The translations under genes and the position numbers were made by a program. A DNA stretch of 64,000 nt from a virus. The stretch spans positions 1-64,000 of IMG/VR virus record IMGVR_UViG_3300022934_002389. One strand, written 5' to 3'. The notes under the pieces were generated by a model. It saw only the letters and a program-made list of their open reading frames with translations. It did not search any database and was not told the origin of the DNA. Below, in pieces: positions 15,715-38,452 of the stretch. Position 1 is the first letter of the stretch. Every line of letters starts with the position of its first letter.

Positions 15715-16062
15715 ATGGACGATCGTCTTGAACAAGCAATAGATTCTGCCAATTTTTTAATTACATTAGAAAATACAAAACGCATATTGAAAGAGCAATA
15801 TAAAGAATCTTTGGTTTGCTATCATAACAAAGGACAATTTAGTATTAGCATGGAACTTATAAGTTATTTGCAAACACTAATAGGCATGAATCAAACAGAA
15901 ACTGTTCTAATTGACGATCACGATATTCCTATTCAAATCGAAAATTTAAAACTTTTTGTTTTAGAAGTAATGAATCAATTTTATAATGCAAACAACAAAT
16001 ATCTTATAGAGTATAACAAACTTGTTAAAAAGAGGTCAACAAAGGATATTGTAGAAGTATGA
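15715..16062 (+). CDS. Small helical protein of unknown function
   Basis: 115 residues, largely predicted helical by eye, with charged/hydrophobic spacing and no Cys or catalytic motif I can recognise. It contains an H-D-I-P-I-Q-I segment in the middle and a Lys/Arg-rich tail. It sits at the junction between virion genes and the glycosyltransferase block, and its TGA overlaps the next ATG (ATGA). It could be a virion accessory protein or a partner of the glycosyltransferases. Position alone cannot decide. Confidence 0.6.
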   Translation: MDDRLEQAIDSANFLITLENTKRILKEQYKESLVCYHNKGQFSISMELISYLQTLIGMNQTETVLIDDHDIPIQIENLKLFVLEVMNQFYNANNKYLIEYNKLVKKRSTKDIVEV

Positions 16063-16910
16063 GCAAAGGTGTCCTCTTTATTGCAAGAAACAATAAAGAA
16101 ATTAACTATCTTTACCAAGCAGTGTTCAATGCACACAGAGTACACAAATATTTAGGTGTACCTGTTTCGATAATTACAGATAACAAAGAATATTTAGAAA
16201 CACGATTCGATAGTCATCCTTTTGAACATGTTATAGAAATTCCAAACGATCAAGATTATGGATATAGAAAATACAATGACGGAACGTATTCTAAAAGAAA
16301 TTTAGAATGGAAAAACACTTCACGGGCAAAAGCATACGACCTTTCTCCTTACGAAGAAACACTATTATTAGATACAGATTATATAATTGCAAATAGTTTG
16401 TTAAAAGATTGTTTTAACCAATTACATGATTTTTTAATTTATAAGGATAGTGTTGAACTTAGTGGATGGAGAGACGTATCAGAATTTGAATTATGTAGTG
16501 ACAAGACAATAGATTTTTATTGGGCAACTTGTGTATATTTTAGAAAAAGTCCTGACAACAAACGGTTCTTTGATCTGCTTCATCATATATCAGAGAATTG
16601 GGAACATTATAGAAACTTGTACCAAATTAAAAGTGCAATTTTTCGTAATGATTATGTTTTTAGTGTTGCAATACACATAATGAATGGACATTATAAAAAC
16701 GGGTTTGCAAAAACTTTACCTGGTAAATTGTTTTATACAATTGATAGAGATTTGCTTATTGACATTGATGGCGATGATTTTTTATTTTGTTTAGAGAAAA
16801 AAGATAGTTTTGGTAATTACATGCCATTGAGAATGAGAGGTTCTAATGTACATGTAATGAATAAATTTAGTTTAACGAGAGCAATGTATGTCCCAGAATT
16901 CAAAGATTAA
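16059..16910 (+). CDS. GT-A-type glycosyltransferase-like protein
   Basis: 283 residues. The N-terminus has a beta-strand/helix start (G-V-L-F-I-A-R-N-N) followed by V-P-V-S-I-I-T-D-N, the layout of GT-A nucleotide-sugar transferases. L-L-L-D-T-D-Y at residues 102-108 gives a D105-x-D107 metal/nucleotide-sugar binding motif after A-K-A-Y-D-L-S-P-Y. The next gene is a related protein (D-V-D in the same place). It overlaps its upstream neighbour by 4 bases. It probably transfers a sugar from a nucleotide donor. Donor and acceptor are unknown. Confidence 0.7.
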   Translation: MSKGVLFIARNNKEINYLYQAVFNAHRVHKYLGVPVSIITDNKEYLETRFDSHPFEHVIEIPNDQDYGYRKYNDGTYSKRNLEWKNTSRAKAYDLSPYEETLLLDTDYIIANSLLKDCFNQLHDFLIYKDSVELSGWRDVSEFELCSDKTIDFYWATCVYFRKSPDNKRFFDLLHHISENWEHYRNLYQIKSAIFRNDYVFSVAIHIMNGHYKNGFAKTLPGKLFYTIDRDLLIDIDGDDFLFCLEKKDSFGNYMPLRMRGSNVHVMNKFSLTRAMYVPEFKD

Positions 16911-17742
16911 TTTTACATTGTTTGCACAAAATACAGATGTTGATTATGTTCAGCAAGCATGTCTTTGCGCAATGAGTATTAAAAATTCAAATCCGAACAG
17001 TTCTATTTGTTTGGTAACAAATGATGTTGTGCCTGATAAGTATCAAAATTTATTTGATTATATAAAAGAAATACCTTGGGGAGATGCTGCACAAGGACAA
17101 GAATGGAAGATTCATAATCGCTGGAAATTATACCATGTTACTCCGTATGATAATACAATTGTATTAGATGTTGATATGCTTGTGCTAGACGACATTAGCC
17201 GTTGGTGGGAATTTTTACAAACAAAGGAATTATTTTTTACATCAAATGTAAGAACATATAGAAATGATATTGTCACAAGTAGATTTTATAGGCCAGCATT
17301 TGATAAATTTTATTTGCCAGATACTTATGTGGGATTTTATTATTTTAAAAAATCTGATCTAGCACACACTTATTTTAAATGGCTCGAACTAGCAGTTAAT
17401 AATTGGGAAAAGTTTCAAGGAGATTTTGCAGGAGGCAAATACTATCAGCGTGTAGCAAGTATTGACATGCTGACTGCAATAATTATAAAAATTCTTGGAA
17501 TCGAAAACGAAGTCACCTGCAAAGTTAGAGATTATCCCCATTTTACACATATGAAGTTACATTGCCAAAATTGGACTAATGTTAAAGTAGACAGTTGGCA
17601 AAAGTATGTAGGCACATATCTTACAAATGACGGTAAATTAAAAATAGGCAACTATTTCCAACAAGGTGTCTTTCATTATACAGAAGATGACTTTGTAAAC
17701 GATAGAATTATAAACATATATGAAAAGCTTGTAGGAGTTTAA
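16888..17742 (+). CDS. GT-A-type glycosyltransferase-like protein
   Basis: 284 residues. It is a sister of the preceding gene: an early F-T-L-F-A-Q-N-T-D strand, then S-I-C-L-V-T-N-D, and V-L-D-V-D-M-L with D94-x-D96 as the DxD motif. A later Y-V-G-F-Y-Y-F-K segment and G-G-K-Y-Y-Q-R resemble acceptor-loop regions. It overlaps the previous gene by 23 bases, and the next start follows its stop directly. The paired arrangement suggests two successive glycosyl transfers in one pathway. Confidence 0.7.
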   Translation: MSQNSKINFTLFAQNTDVDYVQQACLCAMSIKNSNPNSSICLVTNDVVPDKYQNLFDYIKEIPWGDAAQGQEWKIHNRWKLYHVTPYDNTIVLDVDMLVLDDISRWWEFLQTKELFFTSNVRTYRNDIVTSRFYRPAFDKFYLPDTYVGFYYFKKSDLAHTYFKWLELAVNNWEKFQGDFAGGKYYQRVASIDMLTAIIIKILGIENEVTCKVRDYPHFTHMKLHCQNWTNVKVDSWQKYVGTYLTNDGKLKIGNYFQQGVFHYTEDDFVNDRIINIYEKLVGV

Positions 17743-18321
17743 ATGTTACAAATATCTACTAACAAATTTATTTACTTTGATGAAAATGGAGAACTTTTAT
17801 CTGTTAGCAATACTAACGCAGAAGAAGGGAACTGGATTGAAGTAGACATTGATGCAGTTAAAGATATTTTAGATGCAAAGGATTCTATGACAAATTATAG
17901 TGTTGCATTTGATAGCACTACAAAAAAATATGAACTAAAGCATAAACTTATAGCAGTAGACTTCAATACTGATATATGGTATGACATTTTTGAAATACCA
18001 ATTACAGAAAAAGCAGATGTAATTGTTACACAAGATTGTAAAAATAAAGAATGGTTATTTGAACTAGATCCTATGATAGTAAAAGAAACAAAATCTAAAG
18101 ACTCTTTTTATAACTTTCCTATGCAATTCTCGATCACAGAGTTTAATGATCCTCATAATTTATTGCAGTTTATTAAGTTTGGCTTTAGAGATTTGATAGA
18201 AGAAAATGTAGTAAAAGTTGCGTTTGATGATAATTTTAAGGTAGACAAAACTGACATAAGTGTGTATACTATTAAAAAATTCGATACCTATTGTCGGAGA
18301 ATGGTGAATGAGCAAATTTAA
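17743..18321 (+). CDS. Hypothetical protein
   Basis: 192 residues with no motif I recognise. The N-terminal third looks beta-rich (T-N-K-F-I-Y-F-D-E-N-G-E-L-L-S-V). The rest is acidic and Lys-rich, with single Cys residues near residue 110 and near the C-terminus. GTAGGAG lies just before the ATG, which follows the stop of the glycosyltransferase with no gap. The 3' end overlaps the next glycosyltransferase-like gene by 14 bases. Its placement between sugar-transfer genes suggests membership of the pathway but not a function. Confidence 0.6.
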   Translation: MLQISTNKFIYFDENGELLSVSNTNAEEGNWIEVDIDAVKDILDAKDSMTNYSVAFDSTTKKYELKHKLIAVDFNTDIWYDIFEIPITEKADVIVTQDCKNKEWLFELDPMIVKETKSKDSFYNFPMQFSITEFNDPHNLLQFIKFGFRDLIEENVVKVAFDDNFKVDKTDISVYTIKKFDTYCRRMVNEQI

Positions 18322-30171: not shown

Positions 30172-30912
30172 ATGGAACTAGTAACACATCTTAAAACAAC
30201 ATATCCAAACATTAAAAAATTAAATTATGAATTTGTAGGAACACCGCCATATCCTATGATTACATTAGACAATTTTTTGCCAGAATCAATGGCAAAAGCA
30301 ATGGAACTTGAGTGCGAAAGCATACCAGAATTCCATTGGAAAGAATTTACCCGTCGCGATAGTTATATGCGTGAACTTACAAATTTAGAGGTAGCACCTG
30401 TAGCACAAAATTTTACAAATCAAATGCACAGTCAAGCAGGTATGCAATGGTTGATTAAACTTACTGGTATTAAGGATCTTATTCCTGATCCTTATATTGT
30501 AGGTGCAGGTTATAGTAGAAGTTATCCAGGATGTAAATTATCAATCCATACAGATTTTAACTGGAATGATACAATTAAAGTACATCGTATGCTGAGTATG
30601 ATAATTTATCTAGGATCGGATTGGGAAGAAGAATGGGGCGGCCATTTACATTTCAATGACTTCAACAATAAAGGTCCTGTACAAAAAGTTGCACCAATGT
30701 TTAATAGAGCAATTATTTGGAGACACCATGAAAGAGGGTTCCATGGGTTTCCTGATGCACTAGCATGTCCTGAAGGGCGTACAAGAAATGCATTTAGATT
30801 GTTCTTTTACGTAAGCAATGCAAAACACGATGATGAGAATTTACCTCATCGTAGTTTGTATTGGTTTGATGAAGAAACAGGCGAACCCTATGATATTACA
30901 ACTGAAAGATAG
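30172..30912 (+). CDS. 2OG-Fe(II) oxygenase
   Basis: 246 residues from ATG 30172, which has GGAG at 30157-30160. A TTG at 30136 in the same frame would add 12 unconserved residues and is rejected. The double-stranded beta-helix iron site is visible: H126-x-D128 (S-I-H-T-D-F), distal H191 (F-H-G-F-P) and a 2-oxoglutarate-binding R209 (A-F-R-L-F-F-Y). G-Y-S-R-S-Y-P-G-C precedes the HxD and W-G-G-H-L-H-F lies between. This is the prolyl-4-hydroxylase-like layout common in marine phages. It would hydroxylate an unknown small molecule, sugar or peptide. Confidence 0.8.
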   Translation: MELVTHLKTTYPNIKKLNYEFVGTPPYPMITLDNFLPESMAKAMELECESIPEFHWKEFTRRDSYMRELTNLEVAPVAQNFTNQMHSQAGMQWLIKLTGIKDLIPDPYIVGAGYSRSYPGCKLSIHTDFNWNDTIKVHRMLSMIIYLGSDWEEEWGGHLHFNDFNNKGPVQKVAPMFNRAIIWRHHERGFHGFPDALACPEGRTRNAFRLFFYVSNAKHDDENLPHRSLYWFDEETGEPYDITTER

Positions 30913-31540
30913 AACTGTAGAGTTAAACGATCCTTGGGATGCAGTCACAGTATTTGAAGATAGACTAGCAGAATATGCTGGATCTAAATATGCAGTATGT
31001 GTTGATAGTTGTAGTAATTCAATGTTTCTTTGTATGAAATACTTAGGCGTAACAGGTCAAACAATTACATTGCCTGCACATACATATTCAAGCACACCAA
31101 TGCAGTGTATTCACGCAGGTAATAAAATTAAATTTATTGATAAAGAATGGAGTGGTGATTATTTTTTAGATCCTACTCCTATTGTTGACGGAGCAACTAG
31201 ATTCCGTAAAGGAATGTATATACCTGAGTCATATTATTGTGTAAGTTTTCATCATAGAAAAACACTTAAATTAGGTAAAGGTGGAGTAATACTAACAGAT
31301 GACATAGACTTTGTAGAATGGTGCCGTCCTATGATTTATGATGGGCGCCACAAATATGTTAGACATGAAGATGACGATTATAGTTGTATAGGCTATCATA
31401 TGTATATGACTCCAGAAGAAGCCATAAGAGGTATTACACTCTTTGAAGAATTAGGACCAGATAATCCTGATACAGGTTCTAGTACAACATACAAAGATTT
31501 ACGAAAACAGAAAGTATTTGACGAGTATAGAGATGAGTAA
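30890..31540 (+). CDS. Compact DegT/DnrJ/EryC1-type aminotransferase-like protein
   Basis: 216 residues from ATG 30890. The frame is open further upstream to 30818, but only over shadow sequence of the oxygenase gene. Family signs: F-E-D-R-L-A-E-Y-A-G-S-K-Y-A-V-C-V, S-C-S-N-S, L-P-A-H-T-Y-S-S-T-P, and S119-F-H-H-R-K124 followed by L-G-K-G-G-V-I-L-T. Lys124 is at the PLP-lysine position (Ser+5). It lacks the small C-terminal domain of normal ~370-residue members, so it is a minimal or truncated version. It could aminate a keto-sugar or act as a partner protein. It overlaps its neighbours by 23 and 8 bases. Confidence 0.65.
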   Translation: MILQLKDRTVELNDPWDAVTVFEDRLAEYAGSKYAVCVDSCSNSMFLCMKYLGVTGQTITLPAHTYSSTPMQCIHAGNKIKFIDKEWSGDYFLDPTPIVDGATRFRKGMYIPESYYCVSFHHRKTLKLGKGGVILTDDIDFVEWCRPMIYDGRHKYVRHEDDDYSCIGYHMYMTPEEAIRGITLFEELGPDNPDTGSSTTYKDLRKQKVFDEYRDE

Positions 31541-33469: not shown

Positions 33470-34993
33470 ATGAGCGATTATAATCAGTCTGCAGATATTG
33501 CAGAAAAGCAGTTAAAGAATATCAGCAAGACAATGTGTTATGCAAAATGGACACAGGTTTCTATGCATCTTACAAATGGTAAAACGCATAGTTGCTATCA
33601 TCCGCCATTGCATGATATGGATGTTGATGCTGTAAAAGCAAATCCTAAAGCCTTACATAATACTGCACAAAAGAAAGAAGAACGTGCAATGATGCTCAAA
33701 GGCGAGCGTCCTGCAGGTTGTGCATATTGCTGGAAGATTGAAGACGTAGGAGGTCGCAGTGATAGAATATACCGTTCCGGAGAGTATTGGGCACAGAATA
33801 GTAGAAGTGATATTATTGATGCACTAGATACAGGTGACGTAGATCCACGTTATATGGAAGTTAATTTTAACCAAGCATGTAATTTTTCTTGTATGTATTG
33901 TTCTCCACATTTAAGCACAACATGGGAAGAAAAAATCAAAGAACATGGCGAATTTAAAATACTAGATGCAGAGGGCAAGGAAACAGGACATAACAATCTA
34001 GAGTATTTGCAAGAAAAAGGACTTATGCCTTTGAAAGTACGGCAAAGCGAAAATCCTTATCTTGAAGCTTTTTGGAAATGGTGGCCTAGTTTATATAACA
34101 AACTAGAAGTATTTCGTATTACAGGCGGCGAGCCGTTAATGGACATCAACACATTTCGTGTACTTGAATATATCTATGAAAATCCAAACACATGGCTTGA
34201 ATTAAGTATTACAACAAACATGTGTCCTCCTAAAGAAGAACTTATGGATAGATTCTTATCTAAAGTAAAAAAACTTGAAGAGATACAAATTTGGGAAGAT
34301 AAAAATCGTTGGAATCCAGGTAGCGGAAACAACTGGTATGTTAACATGGCATTGAAAAACTTTGCGTTGTTTATTTCAGTTGACAGCGTAGGCTCACAAG
34401 CAGAATACATACGTGGCGGATTAAAGTGGGATACAATGACACGTAATACTATGCGTTTTCTAACAGAAACAAAAAATACAACTGTTACATTTATTAATAC
34501 TTTTAATGCTTTGTCTGTGCCAAAAGTAAAAGACTATTTAGAATACGTGTTAAAATTAAGACAGCGTTTTAGTGCAAGTAATCAAGGTGTGCAATATATT
34601 CCTATACACGACCCTTACACTAAACACGATGATTATGAAATACATCCTCGTCAGCGTATTTGGTTTGATATACCTCTAATTAGATATCCTGACTGGCAAA
34701 CTATTCAAATTTTAACACCAGACTTTGACAAGTATCTTGAAGAAGCAATTGACTTTATGAAACAAAATAGCAATGTAAGCGATTTTGCAGGATTCTATGA
34801 TTTTGAAATTGCAAAACTAGAACGCAATCTTGCTATAATGCGTGAACGTGTTGACATTAATCAAAACAAAATAGAATTAGATAGAAAAAACTTTGCAAGG
34901 TTTTTTGATCAGTATGACGAAAGGAACTTCTTAAAATTTGTAGAAGTGTTTCCTGAAATGGAAGATTTCTACAAGTTATGTAAAACTCTATAA
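33470..34993 (+). CDS. Radical SAM protein with N-terminal twitch-type Cys region
   Basis: 507 residues, the nearest paralogue of the gene at 19246. N-terminal Cys set: M-C-Y-A-K-W, S-C-Y-H-P and G-C-A-Y-C-W. Core motif C137-x3-C141-x2-C144 (A-C-N-F-S-C-M-Y-C), then R-I-T-G-G-E-P-L-M. W-K-W-W-P before the glycine motif is identical in both paralogues. It ends V-F-P-E-M-E-D-F-Y-K-L-C-K. A longer middle region (~50 extra residues) separates it from its sister. It starts after a strong promoter and AAAGGA, and its stop overlaps the next ATG by one base (TAATG). Confidence 0.85.
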   Translation: MSDYNQSADIAEKQLKNISKTMCYAKWTQVSMHLTNGKTHSCYHPPLHDMDVDAVKANPKALHNTAQKKEERAMMLKGERPAGCAYCWKIEDVGGRSDRIYRSGEYWAQNSRSDIIDALDTGDVDPRYMEVNFNQACNFSCMYCSPHLSTTWEEKIKEHGEFKILDAEGKETGHNNLEYLQEKGLMPLKVRQSENPYLEAFWKWWPSLYNKLEVFRITGGEPLMDINTFRVLEYIYENPNTWLELSITTNMCPPKEELMDRFLSKVKKLEEIQIWEDKNRWNPGSGNNWYVNMALKNFALFISVDSVGSQAEYIRGGLKWDTMTRNTMRFLTETKNTTVTFINTFNALSVPKVKDYLEYVLKLRQRFSASNQGVQYIPIHDPYTKHDDYEIHPRQRIWFDIPLIRYPDWQTIQILTPDFDKYLEEAIDFMKQNSNVSDFAGFYDFEIAKLERNLAIMRERVDINQNKIELDRKNFARFFDQYDERNFLKFVEVFPEMEDFYKLCKTL

Positions 34994-36879
34994 TGTATGA
35001 CATCTTTTTTATTGGTGTAAAAAATGACACTTATGAATATCTAAAAGCAAATTTTGTTACAGCAAAATATGCACCTAATTTTTTAACTGCCCAAAGTCAA
35101 TCCTTAACAGACTTTTTTTGGGTAGTTCCTGATGATGTAAGTATAGTAGAAAATTTTACATTTGACTATGAGCCTGATGATTGGAGCAAGAATTACAACC
35201 ATGTGTTTCTTAATGACACCAAATATGACGGTGTGTGTTTGATTCCTAAAGATAATGAAATTACTCTAGACGAAATTGAAAAAAGATGTTATAATAAACA
35301 AAAACAAGTAGAATTACAAGTTAGCGTACCAAAACCGTATGATAAGTTTTATATTGAAACATACGATGATTATAAAGACGCACTGGAGTCGTCAAACACT
35401 GCAATGTTTTGGGCATTGTCATACAACTTAGAATTAAAGGAAGACTTTGACTTTGATTTACATTTTGCACATGATAACATATATGACAAAGAAACAAATC
35501 ATGTGTTCGTTCACGAAGTAAATGGACAAAAGTTATACAATGGAGTAGCACTGTTGACAAAAGCAAGAATTTTAACAAAAAAAGAAATTGAACATCGTTT
35601 TATTGTAAACAGAAAAGAATGGAACATTGTAGCAAGTGGACCTGTAAAATATAATAAATTTGTAATTGATAGTTGGGAAGACTATCAATATGCACTTGAA
35701 AATTCAAATACAGAAATGTTTTGGGGAACAAGTGTTAATATCGATACAAGCGGGTTTGCATTTGATACTTATTTTACACATGACAATGAATATGATAGAA
35801 AAACAAATCATGCATTTATACATCGTGTAGATGATAATGATTTATACAATGGTGTATTTTTATTTTCAAAACATGCACCAGTATCGCAAAGAGAAATTGA
35901 GCATAGATTTATTGTAAATCACAAACCATGGGATGTAGTGGCAAGTAAACCTATACAATATGATAAGTTTCCTATAGACAGTTATCAAGACTATGTAACA
36001 GCATTAAATTCAAGCACAACAGAAATGTTTTGGGGTATTCCTAAAGATGTAGACGTTGCTGATGATTTTAAATTTGATCTATACTTTGAACATTCTAATA
36101 CATATGACCGCAGTGTTAATCATGCATTTTTAAATAATGATACATATGACGGCATTATGCTTTTTAGTAAGCAGTCGCCGGTATCACAACGTGAAGTTGA
36201 TTATAGATTCTATGCAAACAAAAAAGAATGGGACATTGTAGCAAGTACACCTAAACCGTTTGATGTGTTTAATATTGATACGTATGAACAATATCTACAA
36301 GCCTTAGACAATACAACAACAGAATTATTCTGGTTTAGTACAAATAATATTGCACTTGATGAAAAGTTTGTTAATAGTTTTTATATCAGTCATCATGAGC
36401 AAATTGATAGAAAACAAAATCATAGTTTTGTACATAAAGTAGAAGATAAAGACTTGCGTACTGGTGCATATCTATGTAGTATCCATAAACCTGTAAGTAA
36501 AAAAGAAATAGAACACAGGCATCTAGTAGAGCGTAAAGAATGGAATAATGTTGCTAGTGGACCTGCACAATACGATAGATTTAATGTTGAGTCTTGGGAA
36601 GATTATTTACGTGCAGTTAAGATGAGTAAAACTGAATTATTTTATGCAGATGATCCTAATATTGATACAAGCAAGTTTAGATTTAATATGTATTTTGATC
36701 ATGCAAACACATATGACAGAAAACAAAACCATGCATTTGTACACAAAGATGGCTCTGAAACAGGTTACAATGGATTGTTTTTGTTGTCTAAACAATCTCC
36801 TATTACCAAAAAAGAAATTGAACACAGATTTGTTGTTAATCACAAGCCTTGGAATATTATGGCAAGTGAATACAAAATT
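34993..36879 (+). repeat. Six tandem ~300-bp coding repeats
   Basis: Units start at about 34993, 35338, 35650, 35959, 36259 and 36571, with periods of 300-312 bases, all in frame. They encode diverged ~100-residue modules (shared E-M-F-W, N-H-x-F, E-H-R-F and V-A-S markers). Similarity is clearest at the protein level, so the array is old rather than a recent slippage product. The first unit is the most divergent. Confidence 0.75.
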
Positions 36880-37557
36880 TATGATGTTGTGTTTATTTCA
36901 TATCAAGAACCTAATGCAGACGAAAATTATGAACTACTGCTAGAACGTGTACCAAATGCAAAACGTGTACATGGAGTAAAAGGTATTCACCAAGCACATA
37001 TCGAAGCAGCAAAACTTTGCGAAACTGAAATGTTTTGGATTGTTGACGGTGACGCACAAATTGTAGATGATTTTAGTTTTGAATATCGTGTTCCACGTTG
37101 GGACAGAGACATGGTGCATGTATGGCGTACACAAAACCCAATTAATGATCTAGTATATGGTTATGGCGGACTAAAACTGTTTCCAAGAATGTTAACTATT
37201 AATATGGATACAAGTAAGCCTGACATGACAACAAGTATTACAAACAAATTCAAGGCTGTCCAACAAATATCAAACTTAACTTGTTTTAATACAGGACCTT
37301 TTGAAACATGGAAGTCAGCATTTAGAGAATGCTGTAAACTTTCATCAGGTGTTATTGACAGACAAAAAGACTTAGAAACACAAGAGCGTTTGGATATTTG
37401 GTGTACAAAAGGTGTAGATAAACCATATGGTGAATATGCTATAGCAGGTGCAAAAGCAGGTGCAGCATATGGTAAAGAAAATGCAACTAATATTGCTGCA
37501 CTAAAACTTATTAATGACTTTGATTGGCTAAAGGATAAGTTCAATGCAGACACATGA
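34993..37557 (+). CDS. Multi-repeat glycosyltransferase-like protein
   Basis: 854 residues. It contains six consecutive ~100-residue units beginning near residues 1, 116, 220, 323, 423 and 527, then a C-terminal domain from residue 630 related to the DGD-type protein at 18308 (Y-Q-E-P-N-A, K-R-V-H-G-V, V-D685-G-D687). Each unit has (T)-E-M-F-W, a D-R-x-x-N-H-x-F segment, L-x-N-G-x-x-L-F-S-K, and E-I-E-H-R-F ... W-x-x-V-A-S. The units resemble the centre of the C-terminal domain (E-T-E-M-F-W-I-V-D-G-D), but with the D-G-D lost. It could be a scaffold or binding array ending in one active transferase domain. Confidence 0.6.
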   Translation: MYDIFFIGVKNDTYEYLKANFVTAKYAPNFLTAQSQSLTDFFWVVPDDVSIVENFTFDYEPDDWSKNYNHVFLNDTKYDGVCLIPKDNEITLDEIEKRCYNKQKQVELQVSVPKPYDKFYIETYDDYKDALESSNTAMFWALSYNLELKEDFDFDLHFAHDNIYDKETNHVFVHEVNGQKLYNGVALLTKARILTKKEIEHRFIVNRKEWNIVASGPVKYNKFVIDSWEDYQYALENSNTEMFWGTSVNIDTSGFAFDTYFTHDNEYDRKTNHAFIHRVDDNDLYNGVFLFSKHAPVSQREIEHRFIVNHKPWDVVASKPIQYDKFPIDSYQDYVTALNSSTTEMFWGIPKDVDVADDFKFDLYFEHSNTYDRSVNHAFLNNDTYDGIMLFSKQSPVSQREVDYRFYANKKEWDIVASTPKPFDVFNIDTYEQYLQALDNTTTELFWFSTNNIALDEKFVNSFYISHHEQIDRKQNHSFVHKVEDKDLRTGAYLCSIHKPVSKKEIEHRHLVERKEWNNVASGPAQYDRFNVESWEDYLRAVKMSKTELFYADDPNIDTSKFRFNMYFDHANTYDRKQNHAFVHKDGSETGYNGLFLLSKQSPITKKEIEHRFVVNHKPWNIMASEYKIYDVVFISYQEPNADENYELLLERVPNAKRVHGVKGIHQAHIEAAKLCETEMFWIVDGDAQIVDDFSFEYRVPRWDRDMVHVWRTQNPINDLVYGYGGLKLFPRMLTINMDTSKPDMTTSITNKFKAVQQISNLTCFNTGPFETWKSAFRECCKLSSGVIDRQKDLETQERLDIWCTKGVDKPYGEYAIAGAKAGAAYGKENATNIAALKLINDFDWLKDKFNADT

Positions 37558-38452
37558 GTTACTTGATAGATTTGAATTGATGTATCCTAGAGATACTAGA
37601 TTAAGTGATTTACGTAGAGCATATATTGACAAAGATATGAGTAGTATCTTTAGACTACTTCCTACTGTTATACGTGGAAGTACAGATGATTTGCGTAAAG
37701 TAATGATGGAAAATAATTTACACAGTTTGTTTAGACTTGCAGAAGATGAAGAATTGCGTAAGTTATTATTAGAAAACAATACATATAAACTTTGGCCAGT
37801 ATTGAAAAGATTTAAAGATACAAGATTTATTGATGCGTTTAAAAATCTACAAATAAACAATATTGAATACGATACAGATTGTTTTAGTAGAGGACAACTT
37901 GAAAGTAAACTTTGGTTAGTACAAGAATTACAAAGACAAAAAATTGATTTAGGCACAGTATTTCTTTGTGCAGGATGGTACGCTACACTTGCTACAATGT
38001 TATTTGAAAGTAACATTAAGTTGGATAAAGTTAGATCTTTTGACGTTGATCCTACTTGCGCAAACATTGCTGAAGTTTTCAATAAGCCTTGGGTAAAAGA
38101 AGAATGGCAGTTTAAAGCCTGTACACAAGATATTATGGAAATACAATGGGATGGGCATAGTTATCCTGTAAATAGAAGTGATGGTAGTGTTTGTATGCTT
38201 TATGATACACCAGATACAATTATTAATACTAGTTGCGAACATATAGAAAACTTTGCAAAATGGTATGATTCAATACCAGAAGGTAAATTAGTTGTACTAC
38301 AAAGCAACAACTATTATGAAATTGAAGAACATGTAAATTGTGTAGGAAGTATTGAAGAGTTTGCAGTAAAGGCATCTATGAATAATATTTTATATGCAGG
38401 TGAATTTGATTTGCCCAAGTATACGAGGTTTATGTTAATTGGATTTAAGTAA
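37544..38452 (+). CDS. Class I SAM methyltransferase-like protein
   Basis: 302 residues. Residues ~1-105 form a charged helical region (L-R-K-L-L-L-E-N-N). The second part has a Rossmann start V-F-L-C-A-G-W-Y-A-T-L-A, then V-R-S-F-D-V-D-P-T-C-A where an acidic residue would bind SAM ribose, and I-I-N-T-S-C-E-H-I. The G-x-G-x-G motif is modified (C-A-G-W-Y), so activity is inferred by fold. The start overlaps the repeat protein by 14 bases. Confidence 0.55.
   Translation: MQTHELLDRFELMYPRDTRLSDLRRAYIDKDMSSIFRLLPTVIRGSTDDLRKVMMENNLHSLFRLAEDEELRKLLLENNTYKLWPVLKRFKDTRFIDAFKNLQINNIEYDTDCFSRGQLESKLWLVQELQRQKIDLGTVFLCAGWYATLATMLFESNIKLDKVRSFDVDPTCANIAEVFNKPWVKEEWQFKACTQDIMEIQWDGHSYPVNRSDGSVCMLYDTPDTIINTSCEHIENFAKWYDSIPEGKLVVLQSNNYYEIEEHVNCVGSIEEFAVKASMNNILYAGEFDLPKYTRFMLIGFK

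Follow-up and report, generated by a model that had tools for sequence, protein, structure and literature searches.

The window analyzed here, a 64,000-nucleotide stretch (positions 1 to 64,000) of the viral record IMGVR_UViG_3300022934_002389, encodes what is apparently a phage glycosyltransferase (GT) with a single predicted catalytic GT-A domain at its C-terminus, behind a head unit and five repeats that derive from the same domain (table 1). The repeats carry none of the catalytic motifs, are under purifying selection, and recur in many viruses as arrays of variable length, often close behind long tail-fibre genes. The ORF is uninterrupted, near-identical relatives also keep the full length, and its ATG overlaps the upstream stop codon (TAATG).

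Table 1. Repeat gene of the window, its subdivisions, and its genomic surroundings
Feature	Positions	Strand	Description
Three conserved genes (283, 284, and 192 aa)	16059-18321		Recurrent; flanked by tail-fibre genes and the single-domain GT
Paralogous single-domain GT, 313 aa	18308..19249	+	Identity to the C-domain about 39%; VDxDN variant
Sugar/radical-SAM island	19246-60230		About 15 genes for radical SAM proteins, with SPASM, twitch, or B12-binding domains in several of them; also 2OG oxygenase, DUF6071, methyltransferase, and nucleotide-sugar genes
240-aa ORF	30818-31540		Partial match to the DegT/DnrJ aminotransferase family; may be a fragment
Twitch-domain radical SAM gene	33470..34993	+	NF033640, 302 bits vs cut-off 170
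Repeat gene, 854 aa	34993..37557	+	Pseudo-glycosyltransferase array and C-terminal GT-A domain
Unit 1	34993..35331	+	Residues 1-113; degenerate GT-A head, beta1-alphaA-beta2-alphaB-beta3 kept, PDD instead of DxD
Repeat 2	35332..35640	+	Residues 114-216
Repeat 3	35641..35949	+	Residues 217-319; folded singly, pLDDT 96.6
Repeat 4	35950..36249	+	Residues 320-419
Repeat 5	36250..36564	+	Residues 420-524
Repeat 6	36565..36870	+	Residues 525-626
C-domain	36871..37554	+	Residues 627-854; C-terminal intact GT-A domain
D-G-D motif	37045..37053	+	Residues 685-687; [VIL]D[GA]D form in 78/79 C-domains
302-aa gene	37544-38452		Recurrent neighbor of the repeat gene

Layout of the array and homology of its units

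The units of about 100 residues described in the original prediction are real. Self-comparison of the protein gives diagonals spaced about 100 residues apart, and the best 30-residue window scores 132, whereas 200 shuffles gave 33 on average and never more than 52. The three sequence markers that had been assigned to the units are also real, but they are not exact in each of them. NHxF is present in six of six units; EHRF occurs unchanged in units 2, 3, and 6 and in variant form in units 1, 4, and 5; the EMFW marker takes the forms EMFW, AMFW, ELFW, ELFY, and FFW. Similarly, six degenerate units are indeed distinguishable, but they are not six equal repeats. Unit 1 is longer and of a different kind, with a beta1-alphaA-beta2 head, and the array is therefore better described as 1 + 5. 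Unit 1 is also the most similar to the C-terminal domain (C-domain): its residues 42–71 align with residues 681–710 with a score of 78, above that of all shuffles, and its HMM E value is 7e-6. As had been predicted, D-G-D is missing from all six units.

The proposed alignment of the units with the center of the C-domain was confirmed by profile comparison. Using hhalign, a profile of 41 repeats matched positions 44–110 of a profile of 16 C-domains, hybrid rows being excluded, with a probability of 96.5% and an E value of 1e-9. An earlier comparison that included the repeat-to-tail hybrid L040 gave an E value of 1e-13 and is not relied on. Judged from these profiles, the repeats share ancestry with the middle portion of the C-domain.

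AlphaFold2 predicts the repeats as a reduced GT-A fold, and not as a fold unrelated to that of the C-domain. The full-length model has a mean pLDDT of 91.1 and a pTM of 0.56, a value at which the arrangement of the units is uncertain. In this model, the C-domain is ordered strand-helix-strand-helix-strand-DxD, followed by later strands and a last helical part. Its 228 aa and its predicted fold agree with the Rossmann-like GT-A core of about 230 positions (PMC7185993). Repeats 2–6 consist of one strand, alphaB, beta3, and later strands, and end with a long last strand. Three catalytic parts are thus missing from them: beta1/alphaA, DxD, and the final helices; compared with the repeats, the C-domain has beta1-alphaA in front and helices 769–853 behind. 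In many GT-A enzymes, the catalytic base is located on the helix following the last core strand (PMC7185993). The C-domain carries an invariant R-E (778–779) in a predicted helix 769–785, with Glu and not Asp as in xED. Searched against the PDB, the whole model has only GT-A transferases as top matches (E values 2e-4 to 1e-3). For the single-repeat model, 17 of the 20 top matches belong to the GT-A/nucleotide-sugar transferase superfamily; none is significant, the best E value being 0.4. Searching the PDB by sequence yielded no relative.

Motif loss, selection, and copy number in the repeat family

DxD is found in register in 78 of 79 C-domains, as in metal-binding GT-A enzymes, and in none of 113 distinct repeats, which argues that the repeats are not catalytic members of the GT-A superfamily. 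The second Asp of the motif is kept in 35 of the 113 and is replaced by Asn in 44. Between close orthologues, pN/pS is about 0.07–0.10 for the repeats, about 0.2 for unit 1, and about 0.01 for the C-domain. Among 60 aligned repeats, F27, H57, and G71 are conserved in all, E85 in 59, S102 in 58, and R89 in 55, and K95 is nearly invariant. None of the polar residues of this set (H57, E85, R89, and K95) is conserved among the aligned C-domains. As GT-A homologues without catalytic motifs that are maintained by selection, the repeats resemble pseudo-GT accessory domains, and this selection together with their own conserved residues makes them look like re-purposed GT-A copies and not like decaying ones. 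That they are functionless duplicates, as the missing motifs and the variable unit number might suggest, was rejected as most improbable on the basis of the pN/pS values, together with the repeat-specific residues and the retention of arrays in divergent viruses and in repeat-only proteins. Hardly more credible is that they are still enzymes working without DxD: GT-A families such as GT14 and prokaryotic GT6 are active after loss of this motif (PMC7185993), but the repeats have also lost beta1-alphaA and the helix after the last strand.

Comparison with Pfam, PHROG, and NCBIfam gave no profile match to the protein above the cut-off. The GT2 profiles PF00535 and PF13704 do not match the window protein and match only 3 of 25 relatives, with a best E value of 0.0025, below the curated cut-off. 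An identity as aldose-1-epimerase (NCBIfam) was dismissed, with 22.8 bits compared with a cut-off of 251.

In IMG/VR, at least 597 stretches encode relatives of the C-domain. Their architectures span the C-domain alone to 12 repeats followed by a C-domain. Among 148 distinct ORFs, 86 are single C-domains and 50 carry 1–12 repeats and a terminal C-domain, proportions that are not population values, as these ORFs were collected using the C-domain or the whole protein as query. By nearest neighbor, 33 of 34 first units are closest to another first unit and 28 of 34 last units to another last unit, so arrays grow mostly internally. The two close viruses L114 and L123, about 93.5% identical over 10 kb, differ by exactly one repeat (~300 bases). 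Two complete tandem GT-A domains occur in L066, L068, L079, and L127, possible intermediates between single domains and arrays. Repeat proteins of about 540 aa are encoded by L156 (7644-9245; the same gene in L040) and by L166-L168; in L040 and L156, the helical tail of the C-domain is fused straight to a repeat and the catalytic core is absent.

No significant match to the repeat protein was found in annotated phage genomes or isolates. Only five relatives were identified in bacterial genome bins, and two of these bins also contain phage gp23, so binned phage contigs are a likely source there. In BFVD, A0A6J5LK21 and A0A6J5L5L5, two uncharacterized proteins of uncultured Caudovirales, match the structure over the length of the array (E values 1e-37 and 1e-35), but they are only about 15% identical to the array protein.

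Genomic setting and the tail-fibre cassette

The window's virus is a large T4-like phage. A 256-kb record of this virus encodes the identical repeat protein and a T4-type gp23 capsid protein (E value 8e-103), whose nearest isolates, at about 70% identity, are Sinorhizobium phage Phosso and Vibrio phage 2.275.O. No gp23 turned up in the 135-kb record, so the phage type is taken from the longer one. Within the window, structural and tail-fibre genes extend up to 15.7 kb and are followed by the sugar/radical-SAM island, where most of the radical SAM matches are above the Pfam cut-off. The repeat gene lies in this island, about 19 kb downstream of the tail-fibre genes. In 30 of 50 repeat-bearing loci, an ORF has the single-domain GT paralogue as its best match in the window. 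This ORF frequently sits immediately in front of the repeat gene, with twitch radical SAM genes commonly next in line.

Elsewhere, repeat proteins often belong to a conserved cassette, composed of a long tail fibre of the S74 type, a gene of ~135 aa (phrog_1409), an Anp1-like GT (phrog_1574), and the repeat protein, in this order. The Anp1-like GT matches PF03452 with 34.5 bits (cut-off 28.8), and profile comparison detected no relationship between it and the C-domain. Used as a query, it retrieved 80 loci, with a repeat protein directly downstream in 60. These proteins have 3–11 repeats, with or without a C-domain. A Peptidase_S74 fibre domain is located just upstream in 26 of the 27 records checked. 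The same order is widespread (L143, L157-L222). It is also found in a divergent 330-kb virus and, in addition to the window copy, which is outside such a cassette, in the window's own virus: the 256-kb record encodes a second repeat protein, of 842 aa and without catalytic domain, which is preceded by a fibre ORF of 3,371 aa, the gene of ~135 aa, and the Anp1-like GT. The cassette fibres contain 20–25% Ser+Thr. This composition is usual for phage fibres and does not prove that they are glycosylated. The array had been suggested to act as a ruler. Taken as a fibre-length ruler, this did not hold: repeat number and fibre length are not correlated (Spearman 0.05, p 0.85, n=17, including several related records), which removes the simplest ruler model.

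Possible roles of the array and its closest analogues

The gene order of the cassette is the strongest clue to the function of the repeat protein. The position behind a long tail-fibre gene points to a role of the dead copies in holding the target during sugar addition. We tentatively favor the repeats being a non-catalytic scaffold that holds the acceptor for the C-terminal or a neighboring GT acting on the tail fibre or its glycan. The tandem modules would hold either the long Thr/Ser-rich fibre or its growing glycan, and the C-domain would add sugars in cis. For arrays without a catalytic domain, the neighboring Anp1-like GT would act in trans. Products of the radical SAM, nucleotide-sugar, and methyltransferase genes nearby may supply or modify unusual sugars. 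The system would serve to glycosylate tail fibres or, alternatively, surface glycans. It is somewhat unlikely that the 3–12 dead modules go further and form a multivalent clamp that guides a very long fibre along a single catalytic site, located in cis or in trans, the module number tuning glycosylation.

Modification of the host surface polysaccharide (LPS/O-chain), by which the phage would block superinfection and in which the repeats would bind the host polysaccharide, seems unlikely overall but has to be taken seriously for the window copy. This copy lies past the tail-fibre genes among genes for a UDP-sugar dehydrogenase, an epimerase, a DegT aminotransferase, and many radical SAM proteins, and in such an island host-surface chemistry is equally natural; the hypervariable regions of pelagimyophages, with their GT and radical SAM genes, were interpreted in this way (PMC7029224). 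Surface modification leaves unexplained why the repeats also occur in a compact cassette immediately after the long fibre gene. The array could also be a virion part, either a fibre-tip adhesin or a fibre assembly factor, in which a re-purposed GT-A fold binds host sugars. Repeat-only proteins are encoded three genes behind a long fibre, near the position that gene 38 has in T4, and repeat number varies as it does in adhesins. However, most members have an intact and very strongly conserved catalytic domain, and a GT gene stands between fibre and array in the cassette loci, making such a role distinctly unlikely. Less probable still are docking modules that would join the radical SAM, methyltransferase, and GT proteins of the island into one complex. 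In the relatives, genes for twitch radical SAM proteins recur as neighbors, as does the 302-aa gene, and the repeat gene overlaps the radical SAM gene by one base, but the cassette repeats have no radical SAM genes directly adjacent.

Known inactive GT domains lend support to a helper role of dead GT-A domains, towards substrates or towards partners. The accessory (AC) domain of LH3/PLOD3 is inactive, GT-A-like, and adjoins an active GT domain; it was proposed to aid the recognition of collagen (PMC6082870, PMC11838735). The same association of an inactive and an active domain exists in mimivirus R699, which is among the PDB fold matches of our whole model. In LH3 and R699, however, there is one accessory domain, placed after the catalytic one, in contrast to up to 12 here, and we found no sequence relation between them and the array protein. 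COSMC is an inactive GT31 paralogue with a helper role that has lost DxD and the catalytic-base motif (PMC7185993). The GT-A copies described here likewise lack both, but COSMC is a separate, single chaperone and not a tandem. The E. coli K4 chondroitin polymerase and other two-domain GT-A polymerases, also retrieved as fold matches, have tandem GT-A domains in one chain, and a few of the relatives found here likewise have two complete domains. In the polymerases both domains are catalytic, whereas here all but the last are deprived of motifs and parts of the fold. The hypervariable host-recognition region of pelagimyophages resembles the loci described here in combining GT and radical SAM genes with structural and tail-fibre genes in T4-like phages. 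GT8 is its best represented GT family, and the sections of that account drawn on here do not mention repeat arrays (PMC7029224).

The closest known analogues are single pseudo-GT domains, the LH3 AC domain and COSMC, and not arrays, none of which we found described in the open-access literature or family libraries searched. Single dead GT helpers are known. Apparently new are an array that gains and loses single units, with or without a catalytic domain, and the cassette linking a fibre, a ~135-aa gene, an Anp1-like GT, and a repeat protein. The series of arrays provides a natural test set for the effect of the number of binding modules on an enzyme, and their fixed place behind long fibre genes offers a handle on whether and how phages sugar-coat the fibres with which they choose their hosts.
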